Shown: one piece after another, positions 43,619 through 63,246 of the stretch
How the letters are laid out: every line of letters starts with the position of its first letter
Position numbering within the stretch: position 1 is the first letter of the stretch
Source: Geomonas paludis
GTDB lineage: Bacteria > Desulfobacterota > Desulfuromonadia > Geobacterales > Geobacteraceae
Assembly: GCF_014193585.1 (NCBI RefSeq)
Contig: NZ_BLXY01000003.1
Location: 186,001-250,000 of the forward strand
DNA: 64,000 nucleotides
Direction: 5' to 3'
Position numbers and translations under genes: made by a program
The notes under the pieces: generated by a model
The model's database searches: none
What the model saw: only the letters and a program-made list of their open reading frames with translations
What the model was told of the DNA's origin: nothing

Positions 43619-44380
43619 CTACTTCCCCATCTTATCCATGAACATCTTCAGCATGTCGATAGGCACCGGGAAGATCGTCGTGGAATTCTTCTCCGCCGCA
43701 ATCTCCGTCAGCGTCTGCAGGTAGCGTAGCTGCAGCGACATCGGCTCGTTGCCCATGATAGTCGCCGCCTGCGCCAGCTTCTCCGATGCCTGCAGCTCGC
43801 CCTCGGCGTGAATGACCTTGGCGCGCCGCTCGCGCTCCGCCTCGGCCTGCCGCGCAATCGCCCGCTGCATCTCCTGCGGCAGGTCGATGTTCTTCACCTC
43901 CACCGTGGAAACCTTCACCCCCCAGGGCTCGGTCTGCCGGTCCAGGATCTCCTGCAGCTCTTTGTTGATCTTCTCACGGTTGGCGAGGAGCTCGTCCAGG
44001 TCCACCTGCCCCAGCACGCTCCTGAGCGTGGTCTGCGAGAGCTGGCTGGTGGCGTAGAGATAGTTCTCCATCTCGACCACCGCCCGCACCGCGTCCACGA
44101 CACGGAAGTAGATGACCGCGGAAACCTTGACGGTCACGTTGTCGTGGGTGATCACGTCCTGGGAGGGAACGTCCATGGCCACGATGCGCAGCGAGACCCG
44201 CACCAGGCGGTCGATGCCGGGAATGATCAGTACCAGGCCCGGCCCGCGCACCTTCTTCACCCGGCCGAGCCGGAACAGCACCCCGCGCTCGTATTCGGGG
44301 AGGATGCGGATGGCGTTGGCCAGAAAGGCGACGATCAGAAACAGGACGATAAGGACCGGGAAAAGGTTGACTACGTTCAT
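43619..44380 (-). CDS. Slipin / SPFH-domain membrane protein
   Basis: A 253-residue protein with one N-terminal hairpin membrane segment ([19 protein letters not shown]) followed by the SPFH/Band 7 fold: [27 protein letters not shown], then [19 protein letters not shown], then a coiled coil with [18 protein letters not shown]. Slipins oligomerise at the membrane and often partner NfeD proteases; no NfeD gene is adjacent here. GGAGGGAATC precedes the start. Confidence 0.92.
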
Positions 44381-44524
44381 GATTCCCTCCGCGGAAAGTT
44401 CTTAATAAAAGCGCGAAAAAACCCGCGTAAGTATATCGGAACAAGGCTTTACGTCAAATTGGCGGCTTGCCAAATATCGCCATCCATGTTATTGAAGAAA
44501 TCTCTAACACTGGGAACTTACCGA

Positions 44525-45901
44525 ATGAAACCCACCATAAAAATACTCCTCATAGAAGACGACGACGGCAGCCGCGAGGCGATGCTCATCCTGCTCAAGG
44601 CGAGCGGGTTTGCCATCAAGGGATGCTCCAGCGGCAAGGAAGGCCTCGAGCAGCTGGCGAGCGAGCCGTACGACATCGTCATCAGCGACCTGTTCCTGCC
44701 CGACGTGAACGGCATCGACATCCTGACCCGGGTGAAGCAGGACTCCCCGCGCACCGAAGTCATCCTGGTCACCGGCCACGGTTCCGCCGAGACCGCCGTG
44801 CAGGCGATGAAGAAAGGCGCCTACGACTACATCACCAAGCCCCTCAACATCGAAGAGCTGCGCATCATCATCGACAAAGCCGTCGAGAAGGGGCAGTTGT
44901 TAAGCGAGAACGTCTACCTCAAGAAGCAGTTGCAGGACAAGTACGAGTTCGCCAACATCATCGGCAACTCGCAGGCCATGCAGCAGCTCTTCTCGCGCAT
45001 GAAGCGCATCATCAAGACCGACTCCACCGTCCTCATCCTGGGTGAATCCGGCACCGGCAAGGAGCTGGTCGCCAAGGCCATCCACTTCAACGGCAACCGC
45101 AAGGACAAGCCGTTCATCGCCGTGAACTGCTCCGCCATCCCGGAGAACCTGCTGGAGAGCGAACTGTTCGGCCATGTCAAGGGAGCCTTCACCGGCGCGG
45201 TGAAGGAGAAGGTAGGTAAATTCGAGGCTGCCAACAACGGCACCATCTTCCTGGACGAGATCGGCACCCTCCCCATGCACCTGCAGACCAAGCTGCTGCG
45301 CGTGCTCCAGGAGCAGGAAGTCGAGCGCGTCGGGTCCAACAAGCAGATCAAGCTGGACGTGCGCGTCATTTCCGCCACCAACGTCAACCTCGAGGAAGAA
45401 GTCGCGCGCGGCAATTTCCGTGAAGACCTCTTCTACCGGCTCAACGTCATCCCGGTTCTCATTCCGCCCCTGCGTGAGCGCATCGAGGACATCCTCCCCC
45501 TCACCCGGCATTTCCTGGAGAAGAACTGCCGCTCCATGCAGCGTCCCATCATGCACCTGGACAAGGAAGCGCTCGAGGCGCTGGAGGCGTATCCCTGGAA
45601 CGGCAACGTGCGCGAGTTGGAGAACATCATGGAGCGCATTGTCGCGCTCACCGAAGGCGACGTCATCACCCTGCGCGACCTCCCCGCCAACATAGCAAAG
45701 AGTTACCAGGAAGGCGCCCACTCCGTCAGCGTGACCCCGGCCGGTATCGACATGGTGCAGGCCATCAGCGAGATCGAGAAGCGCATGATCGGCGAGGCCC
45801 TTCAGTTAGCCGGCGGCGTCAAAGCCCGTGCCGCCGCCATGCTCAGCATCAACCGCACCACCCTCGTCGAAAAGATGCGCCGCCTCGGTATGCCGCTTTA
45901 G
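44525..45901 (+). CDS. NtrC-family sigma-54-dependent response regulator
   Basis: A 458-residue regulator. A receiver (residues 1-120; LLIEDDDGSREAML, IVISDLFLPDVNGID) is followed by the AAA+ domain with Walker A LGESGTGKELVAKAIH, the sigma-54 contact GAFTGA, Walker B GTIFLDEIG and the R-finger PWNGNVRELENIM. A C-terminal Fis-type helix-turn-helix (VKARAAAMLSINRTTLVEKMRRLG) completes it. It activates sigma-54 promoters when phosphorylated. The cognate kinase is not adjacent. The ATG used gives the usual receiver start; an ATG 13 codons upstream is in frame. Confidence 0.93.
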   Translation: MKPTIKILLIEDDDGSREAMLILLKASGFAIKGCSSGKEGLEQLASEPYDIVISDLFLPDVNGIDILTRVKQDSPRTEVILVTGHGSAETAVQAMKKGAYDYITKPLNIEELRIIIDKAVEKGQLLSENVYLKKQLQDKYEFANIIGNSQAMQQLFSRMKRIIKTDSTVLILGESGTGKELVAKAIHFNGNRKDKPFIAVNCSAIPENLLESELFGHVKGAFTGAVKEKVGKFEAANNGTIFLDEIGTLPMHLQTKLLRVLQEQEVERVGSNKQIKLDVRVISATNVNLEEEVARGNFREDLFYRLNVIPVLIPPLRERIEDILPLTRHFLEKNCRSMQRPIMHLDKEALEALEAYPWNGNVRELENIMERIVALTEGDVITLRDLPANIAKSYQEGAHSVSVTPAGIDMVQAISEIEKRMIGEALQLAGGVKARAAAMLSINRTTLVEKMRRLGMPL

Positions 45902-46055
45902 TCTTACTCTGAGGAGGAGGCGCTGCCTGCCCCTCCTAATCTCTCCCCTCCCCTCACCACCCGTTGCAGCCATCAGCCAGTAAAAGCGTCCAAAGCTTCG
46001 CCTTTACACCGATGAAGTATTTTTATATATTGCGATCTAACCCGTTTAAGGATGT

Positions 46056-46094
46056 GATTGGGAGATGGCCAGTTTTCTGGCCATCCCCCCAATC
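46056..46094. other. Long hairpin before the cassette array
   Basis: GATTGGG..ATGGCCAG and CTGGCCAT..CCCAATC form an imperfect 17-base stem with a TTTT loop, between the response regulator and the first cassette-type gene. It may be a terminator or a residue of an integron site. No integrase gene is seen. Confidence 0.5.
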
Positions 46095-46177
46095 GGCACA
46101 AATTCCATCCATTGGCATGTATCATATCAGCATGTTACGTCAGCAGATCTATTAGCTTAATCAATATATACGCGACA

Positions 46178-46699
46178 ATGTGGGAGGATGACGGCAATTT
46201 CCCACTACTAAGTAGTTGGGCGAGGAAGATACCTATGTGGTACGAGAGTCTTGGTATCATATCGATTGGCGGCCAAAGTGGTGGTCCAAGAGATAACGGA
46301 ATTGGCAACATCAAGATTGATCTTTGGTATCTCCTTTTGAAGCACTGCACCAGCACCCATTGTGCCGCAGTTGACCACTTCGCCTTGGCCTTGCGGGTTG
46401 GAGGACAGTTTGCGGATTGGTCACCTGAGAGGATTCACCGTGTAAGGCGCAGCCGCAAGGAACGTTATATAGGTTGTGACATCGACATTCCCTTAGCGGT
46501 ATGGCAACCACAAACGACAGACCAACTAAAGGAGTATCTGGCTCAAAAGGTACGAGAATCTATAGAAGTGCTAGTTGCTAGGCTCAAAAAGGACAAAGAG
46601 AGCATAGATGCGGAAAGCCTCTTTAGAGAAGTTGATACGGCCATAAAACTCTTCCTGGCATATCGATACACAGGTTACCCCGAAGGGCCAGCCGCCTAA
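46178..46699 (+). CDS. Cassette gene of unknown function
   Basis: I recognise no family. The 173-residue protein has no signal peptide or membrane segment. It includes IKIDLWYLLLKHCTSTHCAAVDHFALALRVGG, and a helical C-terminus (LKEYLAQKVRESIEVLVARLKKD) of the kind found in small immunity-like or phage-type proteins. The ATG used follows an AT-rich stretch without a clear ribosome site. Its stop lies inside the first attC. Confidence 0.55.
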   Translation: MWEDDGNFPLLSSWARKIPMWYESLGIISIGGQSGGPRDNGIGNIKIDLWYLLLKHCTSTHCAAVDHFALALRVGGQFADWSPERIHRVRRSRKERYIGCDIDIPLAVWQPQTTDQLKEYLAQKVRESIEVLVARLKKDKESIDAESLFREVDTAIKLFLAYRYTGYPEGPAA

Positions 46700-46820
46700 T
46701 AATCGGACCTTGAAAGGTTATCGGTGTCGGACCGGGTGAGGATAATTTGAAAACATGAAGAAGTGAGATCCCAACAAGGAAGTTAGACCAGACGATCCGG
46801 TCAACTTCCGACCGTTGGGT
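46694..46820 (+). repeat. attC-like recombination site 1
   Basis: The left end GCCTAAT pairs with the right end GTTGGGT (CCTAA/TTGGG with one G-T wobble). An adjacent CGGA/TCCG pair and an inner GACCGG/CCGGTC stem extend the hairpin. Length 127 bases. Confidence 0.7.
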
Positions 46821-46842
46821 AAGTGAACTTAAGGTACCAAAT

Positions 46843-47271
46843 ATGACGTATTTCCCCTGCACCTCATCGGCCTACACCACTTTTGCTATGTACTTATCGG
46901 TCCTCCTCATCATGTGGCTATTCATAATTTCAAAGGATAGGTCAACAAAGATAGCAAGGGGAAGAATGATTACGTGCTTGGCGCTGTCGGTTGTGTACGT
47001 CGGTGTGGTCTATAATGCAGTATTTATCCGTTATTTCTACGGATATGACATCATCGAAAAGTCAAAGATTATCCAAATAGAATATTTGTCACCACAGCGG
47101 ACAAGGCTACTGAGCGTAAGCATGATAGCGACAGTGAGGTGTGAACCCAGTTATAAAGGAAGCTATCAGACTGTTATCATAACGAAAGACGGCAAAAGAT
47201 ATGAGGGAGTACCTTCAGCAAGAGGTGATGCTGAGAGAGTCGCTCTGCGCTTAAATCCAAATCTTCTTTAA
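46843..47271 (+). CDS. Cassette-encoded small membrane protein
   Basis: A 142-residue protein with two predicted membrane helices (FAMYLSVLLIMWLFIISK and ITCLALSVVYVGVVYNAVFI) and a C-terminal soluble part (SVSMIATVRCEPSYKGSYQTVII). No family recognised. It starts 22 bases after the right end of attC 1 and ends just before the next palindrome. Confidence 0.6.
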   Translation: MTYFPCTSSAYTTFAMYLSVLLIMWLFIISKDRSTKIARGRMITCLALSVVYVGVVYNAVFIRYFYGYDIIEKSKIIQIEYLSPQRTRLLSVSMIATVRCEPSYKGSYQTVIITKDGKRYEGVPSARGDAERVALRLNPNLL

Positions 47272-47579
47272 GGTTGCCGCTTACGGCGGTAAAGGAAAAG
47301 GCGGGGGCAGCCCTGGATATGGGACACTTCGAGGAACATGTCCCAACAAAGTGGGTGGACCGGTCTACGCGGTGGTAAGAGCAGGAATGAGTCGGTAATG
47401 GGCGGGCGCTCCGCCGGTCACCTCACGCCGCTGGCATAGAGAGAGAGCAAATCTTAGTGACGGTGGGAGTGTTGCGGGGCCATCAGATTGATTTGCAGTC
47501 TTGCCCGTCCAACAAACATATGAAGAGAATACATAGCTTAAATTAAGGTTTTGAGTTCGCGTGACTAGTGAGACTTCAA
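47272..47579 (+). other. Spacer of 308 bases holding attC 2 and an unassigned stretch
   Basis: It contains the palindrome at 47341-47436. The 140 bases after it show no gene; one isolated GTCCAAC (matching RYYYAAC) sits near 47510 without a visible partner. Confidence 0.55.
47341..47436 (+). repeat. attC-like recombination site 2
   Basis: Left end TCCCAAC, right end GCTGGCA, inner stem GACCGG/CCGGTC with one unpaired base outside it. The 96-base site and its left flank are clearly related in sequence to the site at 51220-51306. Confidence 0.65.
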
Positions 47580-48305
47580 ATGGACAACCAAGAAATATAT
47601 TATCGGCGTAACTTCTATGATTTGTTCTGGGATGCGGTGCGTTTAGGACGTATGGCGCAGGAAGTACAGGAAGACGATGACACCGAATTCAGCTGTGCCC
47701 GTGCTTCAATAATGAGTTCAGTATTTTCTTTAGAATGTGCCTCAAACTGTTGTGTCGAAATTATGCCTAGTGGCAGTGGTTTTAAAAAAGACGTAGATAA
47801 ACTTCCATTTCTTTCCAAGTTTGAAGTCTTTTTAGGCGTGATGTTTCCCGGAAAAACTTTAGATCGTGGACGACATGAAGTGCAGTTGGTCCAAGAACTT
47901 AAGACCATACGCGACTCATTCACTCATCCTAAAGTCAAAAGGACCAAGCTTATACGGGTTGATAGCAACTGCGAGTTTAAAGAAGGTGCTGGCTACATAT
48001 CGAATATATTTGGAACGGGACCTACTAGATCCTACGATTTTGGTTGCACCCAATTCCTCAATCTCCCTAACACCATCACGTGGCAGGCAGAAGATGCCAT
48101 TTCAGTCCTACATGCTGCCACCAAGTTTCTGAACTATTTTTTTGTAGGACTCTGCTCTTACGACAGCGACACAATTAATGATATTCTCCGTAGTAGTGGT
48201 GAGATATCCATCCCTTCAAAAATCTCCTACGGAAGACTTGATGATCCAGAATTAAAGCGGGCTATGGATCGATGGAAGTTGAACTTGGATTTCCTCGGTG
48301 GGTAA
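47580..48305 (+). CDS. Cassette-encoded HEPN-like helical protein
   Basis: A 241-residue all-helical protein without signal or membrane segments. It carries LKTIRDSFTHPKVKR, whose R-x4-H spacing matches the catalytic motif of HEPN RNase domains found in toxin and defence proteins; other catalytic features cannot be confirmed by eye. It could also be a HEPN-fold nucleotidyltransferase partner. The ATG at 47580 was preferred to a GTG four codons upstream. No partner toxin or antitoxin is encoded beside it. Confidence 0.5.
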   Translation: MDNQEIYYRRNFYDLFWDAVRLGRMAQEVQEDDDTEFSCARASIMSSVFSLECASNCCVEIMPSGSGFKKDVDKLPFLSKFEVFLGVMFPGKTLDRGRHEVQLVQELKTIRDSFTHPKVKRTKLIRVDSNCEFKEGAGYISNIFGTGPTRSYDFGCTQFLNLPNTITWQAEDAISVLHAATKFLNYFFVGLCSYDSDTINDILRSSGEISIPSKISYGRLDDPELKRAMDRWKLNLDFLGG

Positions 48306-48392
48306 AAAACAAATGGGCAGAGTGGACAGTAGTAAGTTGTGTAAGTTGTTGTAGGACAATGGAACTGAAATCGGATACTTGAGACGATGGAA

Positions 48393-48491
48393 TTCCAACG
48401 AAGCGCGTAGACCGGTCTCGCAGTTGATGAGAGCGGGAGGAAGTTGAAAGGGGGCAGGTGCTCTGCCGGTCACGCCGCGCCGTCGTTGGAC
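48393..48491 (+). repeat. attC recombination site 3 (best preserved)
   Basis: The ends pair perfectly (TCCAACGA with TCGTTGGA) and the right end GTTGGAC fits GTTRRRY. The inner arms pair through GACCGG/CCGGTC and GCGCG/CGCGC with unpaired bases on one side, as in true attC hairpins. Length 99 bases. Confidence 0.85.
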
Positions 48492-48500
48492 AATAGAGAC

Positions 48501-48899
48501 ATGAAAAATGAAATCAATAGGAAAATCCGGCTGGCACTTTTGGGATGCGCGGTTGTCGTCGGAGCAGTTTTCTGGTTCCTTTTCGGGGACTCAATTCAGG
48601 AACGACTTAACCGAAGGGAATTCGATTCAACAGAGTGGAAAAACCCAAAGAATGTGACCTACAACATTAGGATCAGAATGGTGAACGATTTGTTGCGCCG
48701 CCACCATTTGACTGGAATGAGCCGGGAGCAAGTAATCGCTATTATAGGTGAACCAGACAAGACTCAATACTTCAAAGACTGGGATATGGTTTATTGGCTT
48801 GGACCCGAGAGAGGGTTCCTAAGCGTAGATTCCGAGTGGCTTGTAATGCGATTCAATAGCCAGAAAAAGGTTTCCGAAGTGAAAGTTGTAAGAGATTAG
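48501..48899 (+). CDS. Cassette-encoded BamE/SmpA-like protein
   Basis: A 132-residue protein. A hydrophobic N-terminal segment (LALLGCAVVVGAVFWFLFG) is followed by a compact domain whose LTGMSREQVIAIIGEPDKTQYF matches the BamE/SmpA signature (helix-turn, then G-x-P), ending in a KVSEVKVVRD strand. BamE is part of the outer-membrane assembly machine; this copy is likely a stand-alone paralogue. It begins 9 bases after attC 3. Confidence 0.7.
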   Translation: MKNEINRKIRLALLGCAVVVGAVFWFLFGDSIQERLNRREFDSTEWKNPKNVTYNIRIRMVNDLLRRHHLTGMSREQVIAIIGEPDKTQYFKDWDMVYWLGPERGFLSVDSEWLVMRFNSQKKVSEVKVVRD

Positions 48900-48919
48900 T
48901 GGCAGACACGGACGACTGA

Positions 48920-48949
48920 CGCCGCCGGTCAAGGCCGCACCCGTTGGCC
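48920..48949 (+). repeat. Right half of an attC-like site
   Basis: CCGGTC, CCGC and the right end GTTGGCC are present, but no matching left half is seen in the 3' end of the preceding gene. Probably a worn or deleted site. Confidence 0.45.
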
Positions 48950-49036
48950 AGAAGACAAAGACTTGGAAAGTGCTAGAGATAGATTGGATACTGCCGCGTC
49001 GAATTGGTGCTATTCCGGGATCATCAGGAGATTCAG

Positions 49037-49612
49037 ATGCAATTGAAGCTTGCAGAGCTTTCGGATATCGACGGTGTATTGGCGTTGCACAGCAAATTTC
49101 AGATTGATACGATAAAAGAGGAAGATAAAAAGGACGGTTTTGTTACAACTGCTTTTACCAAGGATCAGCTGTCGGAGTTGATTCTAGGTGAAAACGGACT
49201 CTTCATAGCGAAAGATGATGGCGTAGTAGTTGCCTACGTAATGGCTGCATCGTGGCATTTCTGGTCGACACACCCGGTTCAGGCATACATGATCGGTCAA
49301 CTCCACCATTACAAGTTCAACGGGGAAACGTTGACTGCAGAGAATTCATACCAATACGGCCCAATCTGTATCGACACAACGGTTAGAGGCGCCGGTGTTC
49401 TCGAGAAGATCTTTGCATACGCCCTGGAGTCGATGTCCCAAAGGTACCCCATCCTTGTCACCTTCATAAACAAAACAAACCCTCGCTCGCTTTCGGCTCA
49501 TATCAAAAAGCTTGGTTTGTCTGTTTTGAACGAGTTCCAGTTCAACAACAACAGCTATTACTGGCTGGCTTGTTCTACCCGTACCGACGCAAACAGGCCA
49601 TTTGAACCCTGA
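49037..49612 (+). CDS. Cassette-encoded GNAT N-acetyltransferase
   Basis: A 191-residue acetyltransferase. The GNAT core reads FIAKDDGVVVAYVMAAS and the acetyl-CoA loop ICIDTTVRGAGVLEKIFAYALE, then LVTFINKTNPRSLSAHIKKLGL. A CAGGAG ribosome site precedes the ATG. The substrate is unknown; acetyltransferases are frequent integron cassettes. Confidence 0.82.
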   Translation: MQLKLAELSDIDGVLALHSKFQIDTIKEEDKKDGFVTTAFTKDQLSELILGENGLFIAKDDGVVVAYVMAASWHFWSTHPVQAYMIGQLHHYKFNGETLTAENSYQYGPICIDTTVRGAGVLEKIFAYALESMSQRYPILVTFINKTNPRSLSAHIKKLGLSVLNEFQFNNNSYYWLACSTRTDANRPFEP

Positions 49613-49674
49613 TTTCTGATAGGGGCATCTGGGGTCAGGCTGAATCTGGTGAATCTGGAAAGCGAGATCGCACA

Positions 49675-49716
49675 AAGCGTAACAGCGGCCAAGCCGCTGT
49701 ACTCTCAGGCGTTTAA
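49675..49716 (+). repeat. Possible short attC-like hairpin
   Basis: An AGCGGC/GCCGCT stem lies between GCGTAAC and GTTTAAC, but the outer ends do not pair well. Weak call. Confidence 0.25.
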
Positions 49717-49735
49717 CGACGAAAATGGAGAGAAA

Positions 49736-50296
49736 ATGCGAAAGCAGGTTCTGCTTGTCGTAGTAGCTTTACTCAGTGTGAACACCTCAGCGCTCGCTGG
49801 CGAGAAGCAGAAAGATTTTAATTTCAACTCTCAGATCGGTATCGCTGAGATCACACCGACAGGCGACGGATGCCTAACCATTTCCAACTCAACCCTTCCA
49901 GAAAACCAAAAGATAAAGCTGGTCATTATCGAAAAGCAGCAGAAGGTCATTGAGAAGGAAGTCCATAAAAAACTTAAAGCAAGCTGTTCAAGAAATCCTG
50001 AGACCCCACCAGACGCCTCGTTTTACTCGTTTTCAACGCGAAAAGAAGAACATTTTGATCCAGCAATTGCTGTAGTTGGATTTACTGGCAATTTCAAGAC
50101 GGTAAAAGGCAAGGTTCGAGCGGATCTCGACGGTAATGGAACCGCTGAGAGTTTCCGGTCGTGCACCAGCAATGAGGGACTGCATTTGACTGTATGGGCC
50201 GGAGAGGCGCTGAACTCGAAACGACAGTGGCACGAATATTACTATCTTGGCTATGACGTCGAACCGTCCTGTAAGCCTGCTGATTATAAGGAATGA
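49736..50296 (+). CDS. Cassette-encoded secreted protein of unknown function
   Basis: A 186-residue protein with signal peptide (MRKQVLLVVVALLSVNTSALA). The mature protein is beta-rich (IGIAEITPTGDGCLTISNS, KGKVRADLDGNGTAES) and has four Cys that may form disulfides. It ends 2 bases before an attC-like end. GGAGAG precedes the start. No family recognised. Confidence 0.6.
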   Translation: MRKQVLLVVVALLSVNTSALAGEKQKDFNFNSQIGIAEITPTGDGCLTISNSTLPENQKIKLVIIEKQQKVIEKEVHKKLKASCSRNPETPPDASFYSFSTRKEEHFDPAIAVVGFTGNFKTVKGKVRADLDGNGTAESFRSCTSNEGLHLTVWAGEALNSKRQWHEYYYLGYDVEPSCKPADYKE

Positions 50297-50297
50297 C

Positions 50298-50550
50298 GCT
50301 CAACCAGCGACACCCGCGGTCTCCGCTGACGCTCCGCCGCTGGGAACGAGAGAGGACGTAGGTAGCTGATGTAGCTTATTGACCACTGCGGGGGACATAA
50401 GATACATAAGATACCAGCGTCGCCTCCTCCTCCCCCTCCTCCTCATTTTTACTTGATTGTTAACGTAGGACACATAGACGGGCGACGCACACGCACGACC
50501 GGTCCTGGCACAGGGGGCGGTCAACGCTCAGGCGTTGGCAAAAAGAGACT
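50298..50550 (+). other. Spacer with one RYYYAAC end and a degenerate attC-like site
   Basis: GCTCAAC at 50298 fits the RYYYAAC end; a partial partner GCTGGGA is at 50339 (pair CCAGCG/CGCTGG). A second candidate site at 50459-50540 ends GTTGGCA and pairs TAACG with CGTTG. Between them 110 bases show no gene, so this could be an emptied cassette. Confidence 0.4.
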
Positions 50551-51162
50551 ATGATTAAACAAGGCAAAATTACATCATGGAATGATGACAAGGGGTACGG
50601 TTTCATCACCCCAAGCTCGGGGGAAGATAAAATATTCGCCCACATCAAGGCCTTTAAGAACCAGGTTCACCGACCAGAAGTAAATCGGTTGGTTACCTAT
50701 ATCCTGACCACTGACAAACAAGGTCGAATTTGTGCAGCAGAGGTTACTATGCTTGCTGCAGCAGTGATCAAAAAAGATGATCAAGGCAATTGGGTGTTAG
50801 CAAACGCCTATGCCGCCTTGTTTTTGGCTTTCATCATGTTCATTTGTCTCGTTGGCACTGCTCCTTCCTGGTTGTTTGCAGGTTATCTTACTACAAGCTT
50901 AATCACCTATATCGTTTACTATTTCGATAAGTCTGCCGCTCAAAAAGGACAGTGGAGAACACAAGAAAGCACCTTACACCTGCTTGCCTTGTTTGGTGGA
51001 TGGCCGGGAGCACTTGCAGCCCAACAACTATTACGGCACAAATCCAGAAAGAAACCATTTCGCATGGTTTTTTGGATGACCGTAGTTCTGAATAGCTGTG
51101 CCTCTATTGTTTTCATAAACCCAAGTGCTGTAGAGGCACTCAAGTCGCTACTAAAAAAATAA
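50551..51162 (+). CDS. Cassette-encoded cold-shock / DUF1294 membrane protein
   Basis: A 203-residue two-part protein. Residues 1-60 are a cold-shock-like RNA-binding fold (GKITSWNDDKGYGFITPSSGEDKIFAHI). Residues 90-200 are a DUF1294-type membrane domain (YIVYYFDKSAAQKGQWRTQESTLHLLALFGGWPGALAAQQLLRHK). Such fusions are widespread in bacteria and are found as integron cassettes. It begins 10 bases after GTTGGCA. Confidence 0.87.
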   Translation: MIKQGKITSWNDDKGYGFITPSSGEDKIFAHIKAFKNQVHRPEVNRLVTYILTTDKQGRICAAEVTMLAAAVIKKDDQGNWVLANAYAALFLAFIMFICLVGTAPSWLFAGYLTTSLITYIVYYFDKSAAQKGQWRTQESTLHLLALFGGWPGALAAQQLLRHKSRKKPFRMVFWMTVVLNSCASIVFINPSAVEALKSLLKK

Positions 51163-51219
51163 GATAAGATAAGGAAAAGGCGGGGTCAGCCTTGGACATG
51201 GGACATTTCGAGAAACATG

Positions 51220-51306
51220 TCCCAACAAAGTAGGTGGACGGGTTTACGTAGTAGTAAGAGCAGGAACGACTCGGTACCCTGGACGCTCCGTCACCTCACG
51301 CCTGGA
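51220..51306 (+). repeat. attC-like recombination site 4
   Basis: Left end TCCCAAC, right end GCCTGGA, with a weakened inner stem. Its 160-base surroundings align with those of site 2 (47280-47436), so one may be a copy of the other. Confidence 0.55.
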
Positions 51307-51366
51307 GCCGGGCTGGGTGAAGGGCAAAGATGGACCTATGTCAGGAGCAAGCGGGAGATTGGACGA

Positions 51367-51702
51367 TCAGTGATGGTGCGTGGCGCACTCAGAAAGAAGT
51401 TCCACGATCCACGCATTAATGCTCTTGCCGTGAGCGGCAGCTTGGGTGGCTAGACGCTGGTGCAGTACTGGAGGGACCCTCAAATTGAACTTCCCGGAGA
51501 ATTGCTTGCGAGGCTCGACCCCATCCTCGGCACACATCTCCAGGAAAGCCTTCAGTGAAGGCTCGCCCTCTTTCCGAAGATCGTCTACTGTACTGGCATA
51601 AAAATCAGCACCACCGTTGATGCCCACAAATTCCCCCCGGAACATGTCGATCTCGGGGTCATAGGAAATTACAGCATCAAACCCGTTAATATTCATGTTC
51701 AT
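51367..51702 (-). CDS. hicB: HicB-family antitoxin (orphan)
   Basis: A 111-residue protein on the reverse strand of the array. It has the HicB fold (NGFDAVISYDPEIDMFRGEFVGING, DDLRKEGEPSLKAFLEMC) and a C-terminal ribbon-helix-helix (GKFNLRVPPVLHQRLATQAAAHGKSINAWIVELL). The usual hicA toxin gene is not seen on either side within 400 bases. A CGGAG site precedes the ATG used. Confidence 0.83.
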   Translation of the reverse strand: MNMNINGFDAVISYDPEIDMFRGEFVGINGGADFYASTVDDLRKEGEPSLKAFLEMCAEDGVEPRKQFSGKFNLRVPPVLHQRLATQAAAHGKSINAWIVELLSECATHHH

Positions 51703-51811
51703 GGTCTTACTCCGTTCGTATGGTCTTATTTTACTACCACCATGAACGTACAACCGTCAAGGCTGGACCCCGAAGGGGTCAGGCACGTTTTAATCTGAAG
51801 CAGCATGACGA

Positions 51812-51911
51812 TGCCAACCACGCGGGTAGACACGGTCTCCGCGGTGGATAAGAGTGGAAGTGACGTGATATAAAGTTGAGCGCTCCGCCGGTCAGCCTCA
51901 AGCCGTTGGAC
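51812..51911 (+). repeat. attC recombination site 5
   Basis: TGCCAAC pairs with GTTGGAC (CCAAC/GTTGG) and the inner arms pair through GACaCGG/CCGGTC with one unpaired base; 100 bases, like site 3. Confidence 0.75.
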
Positions 51912-51943
51912 GAGGGAGAGAAAGCCAGGTAAAGGAGCGAGGT

Positions 51944-52246
51944 CTAATGGCGAGGCTGAGCAACCAAGCGGACTCCAAGCGCGGAACAAACTCGGCTGAT
52001 TGTGTCGAAGCGTGGATGAGCTCCGGGACGCAAGGCTTTGTAGAGGGCTTCGCGTGTCAGCCCGGCAGCCTGAGCAATTTCAGCCATGCCGCGCGCTCGT
52101 GCGGCGACTCCTAAGGCATGGGCCAACTCTGCTGCGTCACCATCCTCAATCACCATGGTGATATACGCCGCAATGTCGGCCTCGCTTTTTAACTGGGTGG
52201 CAAGATCAAATTCCGAGAGGTCCGATACAACGATTTTTTTCGGCAT
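51944..52246 (-). CDS. Antidote protein of a HI1419/HI1420-type toxin-antitoxin module
   Basis: A 100-residue helix-turn-helix antitoxin. It has the family pattern FDLATQLKSEADIAAYITMVIEDGDAAELAHALGVAARARG, and the DNA-binding part MAEIAQAAGLTREALYKALRPGAHP, typical of the antidote partner in addiction modules where the toxin comes first. The toxin gene is 3 bases upstream and both are on the reverse strand of the array. It represses its own promoter in known systems. Confidence 0.87.
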   Translation of the reverse strand: MPKKIVVSDLSEFDLATQLKSEADIAAYITMVIEDGDAAELAHALGVAARARGMAEIAQAAGLTREALYKALRPGAHPRFDTISRVCSALGVRLVAQPRH

Positions 52247-52249
52247 GGG

Positions 52250-52546
52250 TCAATCCTCCAATCTGGCTGCCCGCTCGAAGGCAATGGCAATGTCGGCTGT
52301 TTGTGTGGATTTGTCCCCACCGCCGAGCATCACGATAAGCATGTTGCCACGTTCAATGTAGTACATTCGCCAGCCGGAGCCAAAGAACTCACGCATCTCA
52401 AAAACGCCGTGGCCAACGGATTTCACATCACCGAGATCGCCTCGCTGGGCCTTGTCAAGGCGTCGAGCCAGCCGCAACCGAGTGGTGCGGTCTTTGATGC
52501 CATTTAGCCAAGCGTCAAATTCGGGAAGGGTCTTGACGATGTACAT
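52250..52546 (-). CDS. RelE/HigB-type toxin of the addiction module
   Basis: A 98-residue toxin: LPEFDAWLNGIKDRTTRLRLARRLDKAQRGDLGDVKSVGHGVFEMREFFGSGWRMYYI is the addiction-module killer-protein pattern. RelE-fold toxins of this group act on RNA or translation. It is upstream of its antidote, 3 bases apart, the usual order. Reverse orientation relative to other cassettes implies its own promoter, as known for cassette toxin-antitoxin modules. Confidence 0.88.
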   Translation of the reverse strand: MYIVKTLPEFDAWLNGIKDRTTRLRLARRLDKAQRGDLGDVKSVGHGVFEMREFFGSGWRMYYIERGNMLIVMLGGGDKSTQTADIAIAFERAARLED

Positions 52547-52717
52547 GCCGCTATTGTAGTCGAGCGATTACAAAAAGGCAAGCTGCTCAAAGGCATAAAA
52601 AGACACCAATAACTGCCGAAGGAAGGGCCCAGTAAGAAATTGGATCGGCCAAACCTGCCGGTCAAGAGGGGACAGCCCTCGACACCCCATCTATAAAATC
52701 CCTGGAGATACGAATCC

Positions 52718-53911
52718 ATGAAAGAACTATCCCTTATTTGTCTAGTCCTGGCTTCCTTGCTGACGGCCTGCACCAACTACATGTACGGCGTACCCCAGGA
52801 AAGCTGGGACCGGATGAGCGAAACGGAGCGGGTAGAGGCGATACGGGTGTACGAGCAGGAACAGCGGGCACGCCGCCAGGCTGAAGAGGAGCAGGCCCGC
52901 CGCCAGGCGGTGGAACGGGAGCGGGAACGGGCCCGTCGTGCCGCGCTGGAGCGGGAACGACAGGAACGGATCGATGCCATACACAGGGGCGAGGGTGCCT
53001 TCGGCGAGTTGATCCGGGTTCGCTTGCAGGGTGGCGAGATCAAGATCGGCGACCGGCATCATCACTACCAACCCTTGACCTTCACCATCGCCGACGGCGA
53101 AACCCGCAGGATCGCCGTGGCCGACAGGAAAGGGAGAGAGACGGAACTCACCGTAACCTACGCCGGCGGCGCCCTTTCCTTCGAAGGGCTCCGTTTCCCC
53201 TACGACCGGCGCTGGGGAAGGGGTGAACTCTATACAGACACCGGCACTTCCGGCCCCCTGGCGTTACGGGGGGTGGATGTCTTCATCCAGGTCCACGACC
53301 GTTCTTCTCGATTTGACCGGGAGATGCCGCGACTGATCATCGTCCGGGAGGAACCGCCGGTGGTAATACGGGAACGCGAACGCGAACGGGAAAGGGAAAG
53401 GTCAATGCCTCCACCTGCAATCATAGTCGAGAAGGATCGGCCCAAGCCGCAACCGGTAACGCCCCCCCCTCCGCCGGTGCGTCAACCCGCGCCCCCTCTG
53501 CCGGTGCGTCAGCCAGCTCCCCCTCCGCCGGTACGTCAGCCGGCCAGCCAACCGCCGGTTGGTCCGCCGGCAAGCCAAGCGACGGTGCATCCTCCGCGCA
53601 CCGTGGCAGTCGCCCTCCTCTCGGGTGAGTTGAAGGTGCGGGGCAAGAAACAGCAGGTGGAGCAATCCGCGCTGCGGATTGCGGATGGAGAGACCCGGGA
53701 ACTGCAGGTAAAGTCCGGGGCTGAAACCCGCACCATCTCGGTCCAATACCGAAACGGTGAACTTCTCATCAACGAGCCCCCAGGAAAGGGGCGCAACGAC
53801 ATCCGGCTTCGCTTCGAGAAGGATTGGAAGACGGGTAAGATTTACCGCTTTGACCTGAAGGGCAGAACGGGCCTGGAGAAGGTGGAAATGAGGGTGACAG
53901 GGGTCGAATAA
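52718..53911 (+). CDS. Lipoprotein with duplicated beta domain and Pro/Arg-rich linkers
   Basis: A 397-residue lipoprotein (lipobox LLTAC at residues 14-18). A coiled coil (residues 40-95, RRQAEEEQARRQ-type) leads to domain 1 (FGELIRVRLQGGEIKIGDRHHHYQPLTFTIADGETRRIAV). An RERERERERE stretch and a PPVRQPAPP-type proline linker (about residues 245-290) separate it from domain 2 (VALLSGELKVRGKKQQVEQSALRIADGETRELQV). The two domains share GGEIK/SGELK and IADGETRxxxV, so the module is duplicated. No family name known to me. GC-rich and outside the cassette array. Confidence 0.65.
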   Translation: MKELSLICLVLASLLTACTNYMYGVPQESWDRMSETERVEAIRVYEQEQRARRQAEEEQARRQAVERERERARRAALERERQERIDAIHRGEGAFGELIRVRLQGGEIKIGDRHHHYQPLTFTIADGETRRIAVADRKGRETELTVTYAGGALSFEGLRFPYDRRWGRGELYTDTGTSGPLALRGVDVFIQVHDRSSRFDREMPRLIIVREEPPVVIRERERERERERSMPPPAIIVEKDRPKPQPVTPPPPPVRQPAPPLPVRQPAPPPPVRQPASQPPVGPPASQATVHPPRTVAVALLSGELKVRGKKQQVEQSALRIADGETRELQVKSGAETRTISVQYRNGELLINEPPGKGRNDIRLRFEKDWKTGKIYRFDLKGRTGLEKVEMRVTGVE

Positions 53912-58399: not shown

Positions 58400-58999
58400 T
58401 TACAGGCCCCACGTGGGTACATCGTTAGGGGGCGTGGGTACATCGTTAGGGGACGCGGGTACATCGTTAGGGGTCGCGGGTACTTCGTTAGGGGTCGCGG
58501 GTACATCGTTAGGGGTCGCGGGTACATCGTTAGGGGTCGCGGGTACATCGTTAGGGGACACGGGTACATCGTTAGGGGTCGCGGGTACATCGTTAGGGGT
58601 CGCGGGTACATCGTTAGGGGTCGCGGGTACATCGTTAGGGGACGCGGGTACATCGTTAGGGGTCGCGGGTACATCGTTAGGGGACGCGGGTACATCGTTA
58701 GGGGACGCGGGTACATCGTTAGGGGTCGCGGGTACATCGTTAGGGGACGCGGGTACATCGTTAGGGGGCGCGGGTACATCGTTAGGGGTCGCGGGTACAT
58801 CGTTAGGGGACGCGGGTACATCGTTAGGGGACGCGGGTACATCGTTTGGCGGCGCGGGCATGTCGAAAGGGGGCGCGGGCACATCGTTAGGAGGCGCAGG
58901 TACATTCTTAGAGGACACAACGGCGCCCTTTGTGGTCGGGGGAAGAAGTTTTTGAGAGGCCTGGGAAAGTAACGGGACGAGAGGGCGCCATTGCGGCAC
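58400..58999 (-). CDS. Possible proline-rich heptad-repeat protein (uncertain)
   Basis: On the minus strand a GTG near 58999 with a GGGAGG site could start a 199-residue protein made mostly of NDVPATP-type heptads (about 24). Other frames of the same repeat are also open, including the plus strand, so this may not be translated. No signal peptide or domain. Confidence 0.3.
   Translation of the reverse strand: MPQWRPLVPLLSQASQKLLPPTTKGAVVSSKNVPAPPNDVPAPPFDMPAPPNDVPASPNDVPASPNDVPATPNDVPAPPNDVPASPNDVPATPNDVPASPNDVPASPNDVPATPNDVPASPNDVPATPNDVPATPNDVPATPNDVPVSPNDVPATPNDVPATPNDVPATPNEVPATPNDVPASPNDVPTPPNDVPTWGL
58408..58912. repeat. 21-base tandem repeat, about 24 units
   Basis: Units of the form GGGTACATCGTTAGGGGTCGC (21 bases), with variation mostly in the GTC/GAC/GGC position and a few edge units. 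Being a multiple of three and free of stops, it is open in several frames. Confidence 0.9.
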
Positions 59000-60627: not shown

Positions 60628-63246
60628 TTACTGGGCGTACTCTTTCCAGACCAGGCCGGTATCGGCGTTGAACTTGGTGATGCCTTCGCTGTCCTGCATG
60701 GTGCCGGTGAAGGCCTCGTCGTCTTCCCACAGAATCCCTTCCGGCATGAGCACCCGGGCCACTACTCCCTTGCCGGTGATGGTCCTGGCTCCCAATTGCT
60801 TCGTCTTCGCAGCCTTGCTCTGTTCGTAGACCTTCAGGGTGAACCTTAACGGCGCCGGCTCTTTGCCTTCGGTTTCCACTGCAAAGGTATAGATCCCCTC
60901 CCCTGTCTTCTCGATAATCGCTTCCCTGGTCTTCTCAGGGGTCTTGACCACGATGGGCGACAGCTGCTTTTCACGCCGGGACTCGTTGCGGGTCAGCGCC
61001 CTCCCCCGTTTCGACTTCGGATACTCCTTGAAGGAGACGCTGAGCTTGACATCGTGTGCGCCGGCCACGATCAGCTTGAGGTCGCCGTGTATGGAGGGGA
61101 TCACCAAGCCTTTCTCTTCCGGCGGCTTCTCCGAAGGCCGCGGTCCTGCCGTTTCTTTCTTTGCCTCAACCGGCTTCGCAGCTGCCGGCAGTTGCCCGGC
61201 TGCTGCTACGGCGGTGCGCCGGGCCTGCTCCGCCTTCTCCGCGGCCAGCCGTTCCCGGGCCAGTTGCTCCGCCTGGGCGCGCAGCGCGGCAAGGCGCTCG
61301 GCCTCGGCTCTCCTGCGCTCCTGCTGTTCCTGCTCCACCCTCTTCTTCTCGGCCACCGCCAGACGCGCCAGTTCGGCCTTGGCAGCGGCAGCCTGGGCGC
61401 GTTCTTTAGCCTGCTTTTCCTGCTGCGCCTTCAGGGCGGCCAGCCGCTCCTGCTCCGCCTTCCTCTTCTCCTGCAGCGCCTGCTCGGCGACCCTCTTTTT
61501 CTCCGCGGCTGCCTGACGCTGCTGTTCCTGCTTCTCCGCCGCCAGGCGCTCACGTTCGTGCGCCGCCCTTTCCGCCTCGGCACGCTGGGCGGCTTTACGC
61601 TCCTGCTCGGCCTTGCGCTTTTCCTGCAGGGCCTGTTCGGCGAGCCGCTTCTTCTCCGCTGCCGCCTGGCGTCGTTGCTCGGTCTTCCCGGCTTCCTGCT
61701 GCGCCCGCTCGCGGGCGAGCCTTTCCGCCTCGGCGCGCTGGGCGGCTTTGCGCTCCTGCTCGGCCTTGCGCTTTTCCTGCAGGGCCTGTTCGGCAAGCCG
61801 CTTCTTCTCCGCTGCCGCCTGGCGCCGCTGCTCGGCTTTTTCTGCTTCCTGCTGCTCCCGCTCGCGTGCCAGCCTTTCCGCCTCGGCGCGCTGGGCGGCT
61901 TTGCGCTCCTGCTCGGCCTTGCGCTTTTCCTGCAGGGCCTCTTCGGCGAGCCGCTTCTTCTCCGCTGCCGCCTGGCGCCGCTGCTCGGCTTTTTCGGCTT
62001 CCTGCTGCTCCCGCTCGCGGGCGAGCCTTTCCGCCTCGGCGCGCTGCGCGGCTTTGCGCTCCTGCTCGGCCTTGCGCTTTTCCTGCAGGGCCTGTTCGGC
62101 AAGCCGCTTTCTCTCGGCCGCGGCCTCCCGCTCCTGGCGGGCCTTTTCCGCGGCCAGCTGTGCCCGCTCACGGGCCGCCTGGTCGGCCCGCGCCTGTTCC
62201 GCTGCGACACGTTCCCTTTCCGCTTCCCGCTTTTCCTGTTGTTCCTGCTCGGCCTGGGCGGCCGCCGCACGGCGCTCCTGCTCCGCCTTTTCCGCTGCGA
62301 CCCGCTCCCGCTCGCGGACCAGCCTCTCCTGCTTGGCCCTCTCCGCGACGCGGCGCTGCAACTCGGCCTGCCTTTTGTCGTGTAACTCCTGCTCTGCTCT
62401 TTTTGCCTCGGCCGCCTTCCGCTCCCGCTCCGCTTTTTCGGCCGCGGCGTTTTCCCGCTCGAGGGCCAGCTTTTCCTGTCGCGCCTTTTCAGCGGCCTTA
62501 CGCTCCTGCAGCGCCTTGTCGCGGGCAATCTTCTCCTGTTCCGCTTTCGCCTTGGCCGTTTCGGCGGCCTTGCGTTCCGCCTCTTTTTTCTCCGCGGCTT
62601 TGCGTTCGGCTTCCTGCTTCTCGGCAACCTTGCGTTGGCGCTTGGCCTCTTCCTCGGCCTGACGTTCCTGCTCCGCTTGCAAGGCGGCAAGCTTCTTGCG
62701 CTCGGCCTCCTCGCGTGCCTTGGCCTCCTCGGCGGGATCGGGGGGCGGGGTCTCTGGTTCTCCCCCCTCGGCGGTGTCTTCCTCCTGCTGGTCGGCCTGG
62801 ACCTTGGGCAGCAGCACCGGCGTCTTTTTCGGCCCCGGAGCCGGCTGCTTCGGCTTGCCCGCGTTTGCCTTGGCGGCGACCATCTCTACCCGCGGTTCTC
62901 CCGCTGCCGCCTCAGCGGGCTGGTCCGGCAGATCCGCCTCCGCCGCAGCATCAGGCTCGGCAGCGGGAGGATTGACGGTCGCAAGGGTGCTCACGGGAAG
63001 TTCGGCAGTCGGGGAGGAGGCCGGCGCGGCGCTGGCCTTGTCGGGTGTCGCGGTGGCGGCCATGGGGAGTGAGGAAGGGGAAAGCCAGAGGATGTCGAAC
63101 CTGGCCGAAGTGCCGGTCTGGGGATAGTAGATGGCAGCCGACGACAGCACGAAAAACAGCAGGGTGTGGACCGCAAGCGAGCCTACGGTGGCCCAAACGA
63201 TGCCACCCCGGTCCACCCTTCTGTTCAACCACACGTATTCGTCCAT
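60628..63246 (-). CDS. TolA-like membrane-anchored coiled-coil protein with long internal repeats
   Basis: An 872-residue protein. A single N-terminal membrane helix (GIVWATVGSLAVHTLLFFVLSSAAIYY) is followed by an Ala/Pro/Thr-rich region (residues 50-150). Residues about 170-700 are a Lys/Glu/Arg/Ala coiled coil in which a unit of about 51 residues (EKKRLAEQALQEKRKAEQERKAAQRAEAERLARE-like) recurs four or five times. A C-terminal globular domain (about 735-870; VAGAHDVKLSVSFKEYPKS, GIYTFAVETEGKEPAPLRF) closes it. The architecture is TolA/TonB-like, spanning the periplasm, but it is much longer. The ATG used is the first Met before the membrane helix. Confidence 0.7.
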   Translation of the reverse strand: MDEYVWLNRRVDRGGIVWATVGSLAVHTLLFFVLSSAAIYYPQTGTSARFDILWLSPSSLPMAATATPDKASAAPASSPTAELPVSTLATVNPPAAEPDAAAEADLPDQPAEAAAGEPRVEMVAAKANAGKPKQPAPGPKKTPVLLPKVQADQQEEDTAEGGEPETPPPDPAEEAKAREEAERKKLAALQAEQERQAEEEAKRQRKVAEKQEAERKAAEKKEAERKAAETAKAKAEQEKIARDKALQERKAAEKARQEKLALERENAAAEKAERERKAAEAKRAEQELHDKRQAELQRRVAERAKQERLVRERERVAAEKAEQERRAAAAQAEQEQQEKREAERERVAAEQARADQAARERAQLAAEKARQEREAAAERKRLAEQALQEKRKAEQERKAAQRAEAERLAREREQQEAEKAEQRRQAAAEKKRLAEEALQEKRKAEQERKAAQRAEAERLAREREQQEAEKAEQRRQAAAEKKRLAEQALQEKRKAEQERKAAQRAEAERLARERAQQEAGKTEQRRQAAAEKKRLAEQALQEKRKAEQERKAAQRAEAERAAHERERLAAEKQEQQRQAAAEKKRVAEQALQEKRKAEQERLAALKAQQEKQAKERAQAAAAKAELARLAVAEKKRVEQEQQERRRAEAERLAALRAQAEQLARERLAAEKAEQARRTAVAAAGQLPAAAKPVEAKKETAGPRPSEKPPEEKGLVIPSIHGDLKLIVAGAHDVKLSVSFKEYPKSKRGRALTRNESRREKQLSPIVVKTPEKTREAIIEKTGEGIYTFAVETEGKEPAPLRFTLKVYEQSKAAKTKQLGARTITGKGVVARVLMPEGILWEDDEAFTGTMQDSEGITKFNADTGLVWKEYAQ

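Follow-up and report, generated by a model that had tools for sequence, protein, structure and literature searches.

The 64,000-nt stretch of the Geomonas paludis genome analysed here (genome G000, contig C3:186001–250000; referred to throughout as the window) holds an array of gene cassettes, from about 46003 to 52665, which is probably a chromosomal integron without its former integrase gene, intI, but still with its attachment site, attI, and a putative cassette promoter (Pc), part of the array having decayed. We put the probability of this reading, which is based on sequence comparison, at about 0.85. It is directly supported by the attC and attI homology of the array, the lack of an intact intI in the assembly, the different cassettes found at the same locus in a related species, and the second copies of two of its cassettes elsewhere in the genome. 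The initial annotation had described an integrase-less cluster of attC sites (a CALIN, or cluster of attC sites lacking an integron integrase) at 46100..52560, in an AT-richer run between GC-rich genes, and was right but understated. The run is there (45–52% GC at 46–52 kb versus 57–62% in the adjoining kilobases), attC models match it strongly and the window contains no IntI similarity; the limits needed correcting, however, and the CALIN label, while applicable, is incomplete, as attI and a putative Pc are retained and the array is for this reason best read as an integron from which intI has been deleted. These two elements form an array head which the initial annotation overlooked, and of which the genus has many more:

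46003..46031, forward strand: putative Pc, sigma-70-like (TTTACA-17-TATATT), reading into the array, 10 of 12 consensus matches
46060..46221, forward strand: attI head, with a hairpin at 46060–46089, a core at 46198–46221 and the crossover in the GTT at 46215–46217

The window head (46060–46219) shares 77% identity over 169 bases with the segment lying between an intact intI and the first attC in Geomonas propionica Red259 (G013), and this homology to an intI-adjacent segment points to an integron that lost its intI. The integrase frame begins just left of the promoter in G. propionica, and at the window the regulator gene of the left flank ends there instead. Homology to the syntenic head of Geomonas anaerohicana Red421 (G002) stops at 46219. 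An alignment of 18 heads recovered the promoter boxes, the palindromic hairpin and the core, TTTCCCACTAATAAGTAGTTGG, and the boxes are spaced by 17 bases in 20 of 23 heads (the pattern used found none in the other three). The segment from promoter to hairpin is about 40 bases shorter in the window than in most copies. Homology and a break in identity at the GTT in all eight head pairs compared (see below) suggest that this is indeed attI next to the first cassette, and we consider the putative Pc a probable cassette promoter. We had also considered the head as a non-coding cassette, and dropped this because no GTT was seen at its 5' edge. Between promoter and hairpin, 11 of 23 heads (e.g., L096, L098 and L103) carry an inverted repeat, ATTTG-N6-CAAAT, after the –10 box, possibly an operator; it is absent from the window, G002 and G011:C1:1825596 heads among others. 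The hairpin loop is inverted relative to other heads at L109:12808–12838 and L061:1849–1888, as flipping of the palindrome at the DNA level would leave it.

The attC sites were sought with covariance models built without any window site, R1 from nine sites, all in intI-linked arrays of other genomes, and R2 from seven, six of them in intI-linked arrays and one from L026. At E < 1e-4, R1 matched five sites of the array, three with E below 1e-14 (46767–46820, 47339–47436, 48391–48491, 51218–51307 and 51810–51911; the best at E 7.1e-18, 5.8e-17 and 1.4e-15), and R2 contributed one further site (48891–48948), so that the array has the at least two attC sites expected of a CALIN; the best matches outside the array in the 64 kb were at E 0.003 (R1, to a loop stretch only) and 0.0066 (R2). 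A strict hand-written attC scan found two window sites only, and homology and covariance models were used instead; Rfam at gathering thresholds gave no window match. The ten sites, all on the forward strand, are:

46769..46820: attC1, 52 bases, both ends intact; E 1.6e-5 (R1) and 4e-5 (R2), and fold
47341..47436: attC2, family A, right end altered to GCTGGCA; R1 E 5.8e-17
48393..48491: attC3, family A, both ends intact; R1 E 1.4e-15; 91% identity to an attC of the G002 array
48891..48948: attC4, family B, left end lost; R2 E 1.3e-7
49678..49717: attC5, another short type, both ends damaged; 97% identity over 36 bases to an attI-headed G018 array
50297..50344: attC6, another short type, right end lost; 93% identity over 42 bases to the intI-linked array L016
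50456..50540: attC7, possible, right end GTTGGCA only; by eye, no R1 or R2 match
51218..51307: attC8, family A, right end lost; R1 E 2.7e-5
51812..51911: attC9, family A, both ends intact; R1 E 7.1e-18
52625..52665: attC10, remnant of the toxin–antitoxin cassette, right end lost; a fuller counterpart lies behind the same cassette in L109

These sites measure about 40–100 bases and are not the 90–130-base palindromes first described, and the RYYYAAC-like and GTTRRRY-like ends noted earlier are both present in three sites only (the AAC and GTT of 46769–46820, 48393–48491 and 51812–51911). Similarly, start codons do lie 9–22 bases after the right ends at 46221, 46820, 48491 and 50540, but not after 47436 (143 bases) or 48948 (88 bases). 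attC5 and attC6 were recognised solely by their identity to short sites in the arrays of other species.

No protein encoded by the G. paludis genome (5.11 Mb in 30 contigs, 99.99% complete) exceeds the TIGR02249 cut-off for IntI. Its longer tyrosine recombinases match this model in two stretches which break around the IntI-specific segment, and 14 control genomes also give TIGR02249 matches, none over the cut-off; the intact intI with its IntI-specific segment that a complete integron would carry was therefore not found in G000. What the genome does keep, on another contig, is an IntI relic of 47 C-terminal residues (C2:970475–970615) that is 91% identical to the G. propionica IntI and adjoins two attC sites on the expected strand. 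As G000 yielded nothing of IntI but this relic, the array should now be frozen unless an integrase enters. Among the 19 Geomonas genomes compared (G000 included), six have an IntI over the cut-off, with frames of 415–538 codons, and in three of these (G002, G006 and G015) it is on contigs other than those with heads. Remnants of IntI were found by tblastn in the expected place to the left of other heads, comprising residues 1–153 and 437–465 in G018 and residues 1–53 in G004 and G005. A candidate truncated intI at G013:C57 (TIGR02249 122 bits, below cut-off) is on the other side of the head with a tblastn identity of 34%, and we treat it as another recombinase.

A rival reading is a pure CALIN, in which cassettes were inserted at an attG-like secondary site by an integrase elsewhere and no integron ever existed here. 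From the regulator gene to the head, neither the window nor G002 shows any IntI similarity, and attG insertion of cassettes is mentioned in PMC12444791. Such an insertion site would have no attI sequence, whereas the array starts at a conserved attI module, a 160-base stretch homologous to the intI-adjacent G. propionica segment, with promoter boxes at a fixed spacing and with other copies that keep intI 5' remnants, and we regard this explanation as very improbable.

A sequence-only model of the head, R3 (threshold E ≤ 1e-6), found 30 matches in 12 of the 19 Geomonas genomes, with up to five attI heads per genome, and one match in 29 other genomes of the family. An intact intI adjoins only one of the 30 heads (G013:C15, at 105 bases), leaving 29 without, and eight of the 12 head-bearing genomes lack an IntI over the cut-off. 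Same-strand attC sites lie within 5 kb downstream of 18 heads and opposite-strand sites downstream of none, compared with about 0.16 expected by chance. This last result argues against the head being an unrelated dispersed element, such as a regulatory RNA or one resembling a miniature inverted-repeat transposable element (MITE), which precedes cassettes by chance. The strong palindromic hairpin, hairpin-only matches elsewhere and changes on both sides of 3 of 18 predicted pairs would suit such an element, but its 3' edge falls at the GTT with different cassettes behind it, and one copy sits beside an intact intI; we find the idea barely credible. For the attC sites, R1 and R2 gave 201 matches in 18 genomes, forming 86 loci, of which six have an intI within 10 kb and 19 have a head within 5 kb (a site found by both models is counted twice and scoring was limited to 150 candidates per genome, so the number of real sites may differ).

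The locus was also compared with its syntenic counterpart in a related species. G. anaerohicana is 95% identical to the window over 44000–46219, then has other genes, and then the same right flank, so that neither of the outcomes which would have counted against a cassette array, a lack of attC matches above threshold or an unchanged gene order in relatives, was observed. A HicB stretch is common to both at 92% DNA identity, and between this and the right flank the window has an attC and a toxin–antitoxin cassette that G002 lacks at this locus. (Six loci repeating the window or the G002 stretch were excluded from our listing of cassette homologies.) In all eight head pairs the identity is 70–100% over 100–200 bases left of the GTT and 50–59% right of it (shuffled controls have means of 50–55% and maxima of 56–62%), and four of the pairs have orthologous left flanks (at least 88%). 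Two pairs are especially informative: the window and G002 share a left side without intI, and G004 and G005 (L105 and L108) share the same truncated intI within a common stretch of 2.7 kb at 97.8% identity and differ right of the GTT. As these left sides were already without most or all of intI, the first cassettes were most likely changed after the local loss of the gene. Within G. paludis, contig C2 carries second copies of the GNAT cassette (97.5% DNA identity over 592 bases) and the HigBA cassette (94.3% over 724 bases); they are adjacent there and in reverse order, and apart in the window.

The same pairs count against a frozen relic, in which all cassette differences predate the loss of intI at each locus and nothing has moved since. 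The number of head-bearing genomes without IntI over the cut-off and the damage to most window attC sites are as this explanation would have them. However, each of the two pairs shares its intI-less or truncated junction and still differs, and we found no general decay of integrase-less arrays, with 40 of 45 sites without intI and 18 of 22 intI-linked sites (and two of four window sites) retaining both attC ends by a lenient test that accepts AAC and GTT anywhere near the ends, applied to matches from models which favour well-kept sites, after merging overlapping matches and dropping the duplicate locus L120. We therefore think it unlikely that the arrays have been static, though this retains some weight. 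Slightly less credit is due to the swapping of arrays by homologous recombination between strains or heads with no integrase involved. Heads and attC sites are repeated sequences, two G016 heads are 94% identical, and the right flank and HicB are common to G000 and G002; set against this, the other 16 of 17 within-genome head pairs are 66–85% identical and would be poor substrates, and the reversed order and separation of the twice-present cassettes do not fit. The simplest account of the cassette changes is perhaps an integrase acting in trans before its own loss.

Several observations weigh against our reading of the array as an integron that lost intI. Seven of the ten window attC sites are damaged or doubtful, attC5–7 were missed by both R1 and R2, and the putative Pc matches the consensus at only 10 of 12 positions, where shuffled sequences average 0.5 such sites. 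Across the genus, R1 and R2 detected no attC within 5 kb of 12 of the 30 heads (five of the 12 point to a contig end no more than about 1.4 kb away), and five of the six intI loci over the cut-off have no head match beside them, so that the link between head and integrase rests on G. propionica and the remnants. One head pair (L096 and L102) is 59% identical right of the GTT, just above its shuffled maximum of 58%. An intI may also lie in a gap of the 30-contig G000 assembly, and the G002 differences would also follow if the array had been replaced through homologous recombination with an unsampled strain.

If the integron reading is correct, IntI would have inserted circular cassettes successively at the attI GTT (46215), joining them at their attC sites, and intI, once left of the promoter, would later have been deleted to leave Pc and attI beside the regulator gene. 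Transcription from Pc probably still reaches the first cassettes, and the toxin–antitoxin cassette, on the opposite strand, probably has its own promoter. Cassettes would then have changed after the local loss of intI, and the most likely agent is an integrase acting in trans, encoded at another locus or on a mobile element. In G008 and G002 the intI genes (L010 and L011) adjoin a frame that by eye resembles a MobF-type conjugative relaxase, and such a conjugative element could perhaps supply IntI in trans. More tentatively, and with somewhat less than even confidence, we suggest that Geomonas has a distributed integron, in which several promoter–attI heads per genome without an intI of their own are served in trans by one or a few transient integrases, now relics or encoded on mobile elements. 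If so, cassettes are still being exchanged in lineages, and at loci, that seem to be integrase-less.

The genes carried by the array are as follows:

46235..46699, forward strand: cassette 1 gene, 154 residues, no family (a longer frame is 46184–46699)
46843..47271, forward strand: cassette 2 gene, 142 residues, no family
47580..48305, forward strand: cassette 3 gene, 241 residues, no family
48501..48899, forward strand: cassette 4 gene, 132 residues, BamE-like domain (PF04355, E 2e-5)
49037..49612, forward strand: cassette 5 gene, 191 residues, GNAT match below the Pfam cut-off, second G000 copy on contig C2
49736..50296, forward strand: cassette 6 gene, 186 residues, no family
50551..51162, forward strand: cassette 7 gene, 203 residues, cold-shock domain (PF00313) and DUF1294 (PF06961)
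51367..51702, reverse strand: HicB-family gene, opposite to the array, PF05534 on the frame 51367–51753, common to G002
51944..52246, reverse strand: addiction-module antidote, HigA-like (TIGR02684, E 1e-33)
52250..52546, reverse strand: RelE/ParE-family toxin, HigB-like (TIGR02683, E 4e-32)

With Pfam at E 0.01, four of the seven forward genes gave no match, and PADLOC and PHROGs searches of all seven returned only the cold-shock domain and one weak match to an unknown protein (for cassette 1 the longer frame was used with Pfam and its own frame with PADLOC and PHROGs). The cassette 3 protein (47580–48305), without a family match, contains an R-x4-H stretch, RDSFTH, which we take to resemble the HEPN nuclease motif. 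Reverse-strand toxin–antitoxin cassettes are usual in chromosomal integrons.

The array is flanked by two genes:

44540..45901, forward strand: sigma-54-type response regulator gene (function assigned by eye), left flank, present in 19 of 19 Geomonas genomes
52718..53911, forward strand: lipoprotein-like gene, right flank, present in 7 of 19

Comparing the genus searches for each flank, the lipoprotein-like gene is near the regulator gene only in G000 and G002. An insertion hot spot seems to lie at the 3' end of the regulator gene, at 45901 in the window and at the equivalent point of L057, L065, L067, L068, L069 and L070. A repeat end, TGTCNGGAGACAA, begins about 10–12 bases past the regulator stop codon in six other genomes, and TnsA-like, Mu-transposase-C and TniB/AAA proteins are encoded in L070, and on these grounds a Tn7-like element seems to use the site. 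Partial second regulator 3' ends are found downstream of the full gene at L060:11880–12116 (G011) and L058:2492–2557 (G003), a pattern expected of insertions carrying a copy of the gene end, and in G010, which has no IntI over the cut-off, attC sites lie behind the regulator gene at L069:1840–6700 on the strand opposite to the window array. Elsewhere in the window, a 21-base unit is repeated about 23 times at 58415–58905 (92% matches) and a 153-base tandem repeat of 4.3 copies occupies 61445–62109, where the AT skew is about –0.63.

In a literature search that had most subscription journals outside its reach, no listed paper described genomes with several attI heads and no intI beside them, none combined integrons and Geomonas, and looking for orphan or solitary attI sites or integrase-less integrons returned one unrelated paper. 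CALINs, intI pseudogenes and the trans mobilisation of CALIN cassettes have already been published (PMC9024848, PMC12444791, PMC2426708 and PMC9668308). According to PMC9024848, attI sites outside class 1 integrons have been little described and escape its program; here attI and a likely promoter can be recognised outside that class. Orthologous heads can be compared between species, where shared deletions suggest the order of events, with local intI lost and then cassettes changed; the question of trans service to integrase-less arrays becomes testable, and the head model can be used to find further such heads.

Like a CALIN, the window array has two or more attC sites with no intI close by, and it differs in its recognisable attI and putative Pc. 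In the Xanthomonas integrons at the ilvD locus, intI has been lost in many lineages and arrays retained, CALINs occur at further loci and trans mobilisation is stated to be possible (PMC12444791); arrays outlast intI in both genera, but in Xanthomonas intI, where kept, is at one locus, and in Geomonas there are up to five heads per genome and almost none has an adjacent intact intI. Geobacter integrons have been described by their intI genes, with at least two in each of G. metallireducens and G. lovleyi and an IntI clade about 120 residues longer than others (PMC2426708), to which the 415–538 codons of the six Geomonas IntI frames may be compared. In the Vibrio cholerae superintegron Pc is just upstream of attI and overlaps the integrase promoter (PMC3948777); the putative Pc of the window would likewise be upstream of attI, but the V. 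cholerae Pc is about 65 bases before the crossover, and the putative Pc of the window is about 185–210 bases before it and without intI. Finally, the delta-attI-type cassettes of mobile integrons also have attI sequence away from its usual place (PMC12901181), but in these, pieces of attI are inside cassettes, whereas in Geomonas whole heads with promoter boxes start the arrays.

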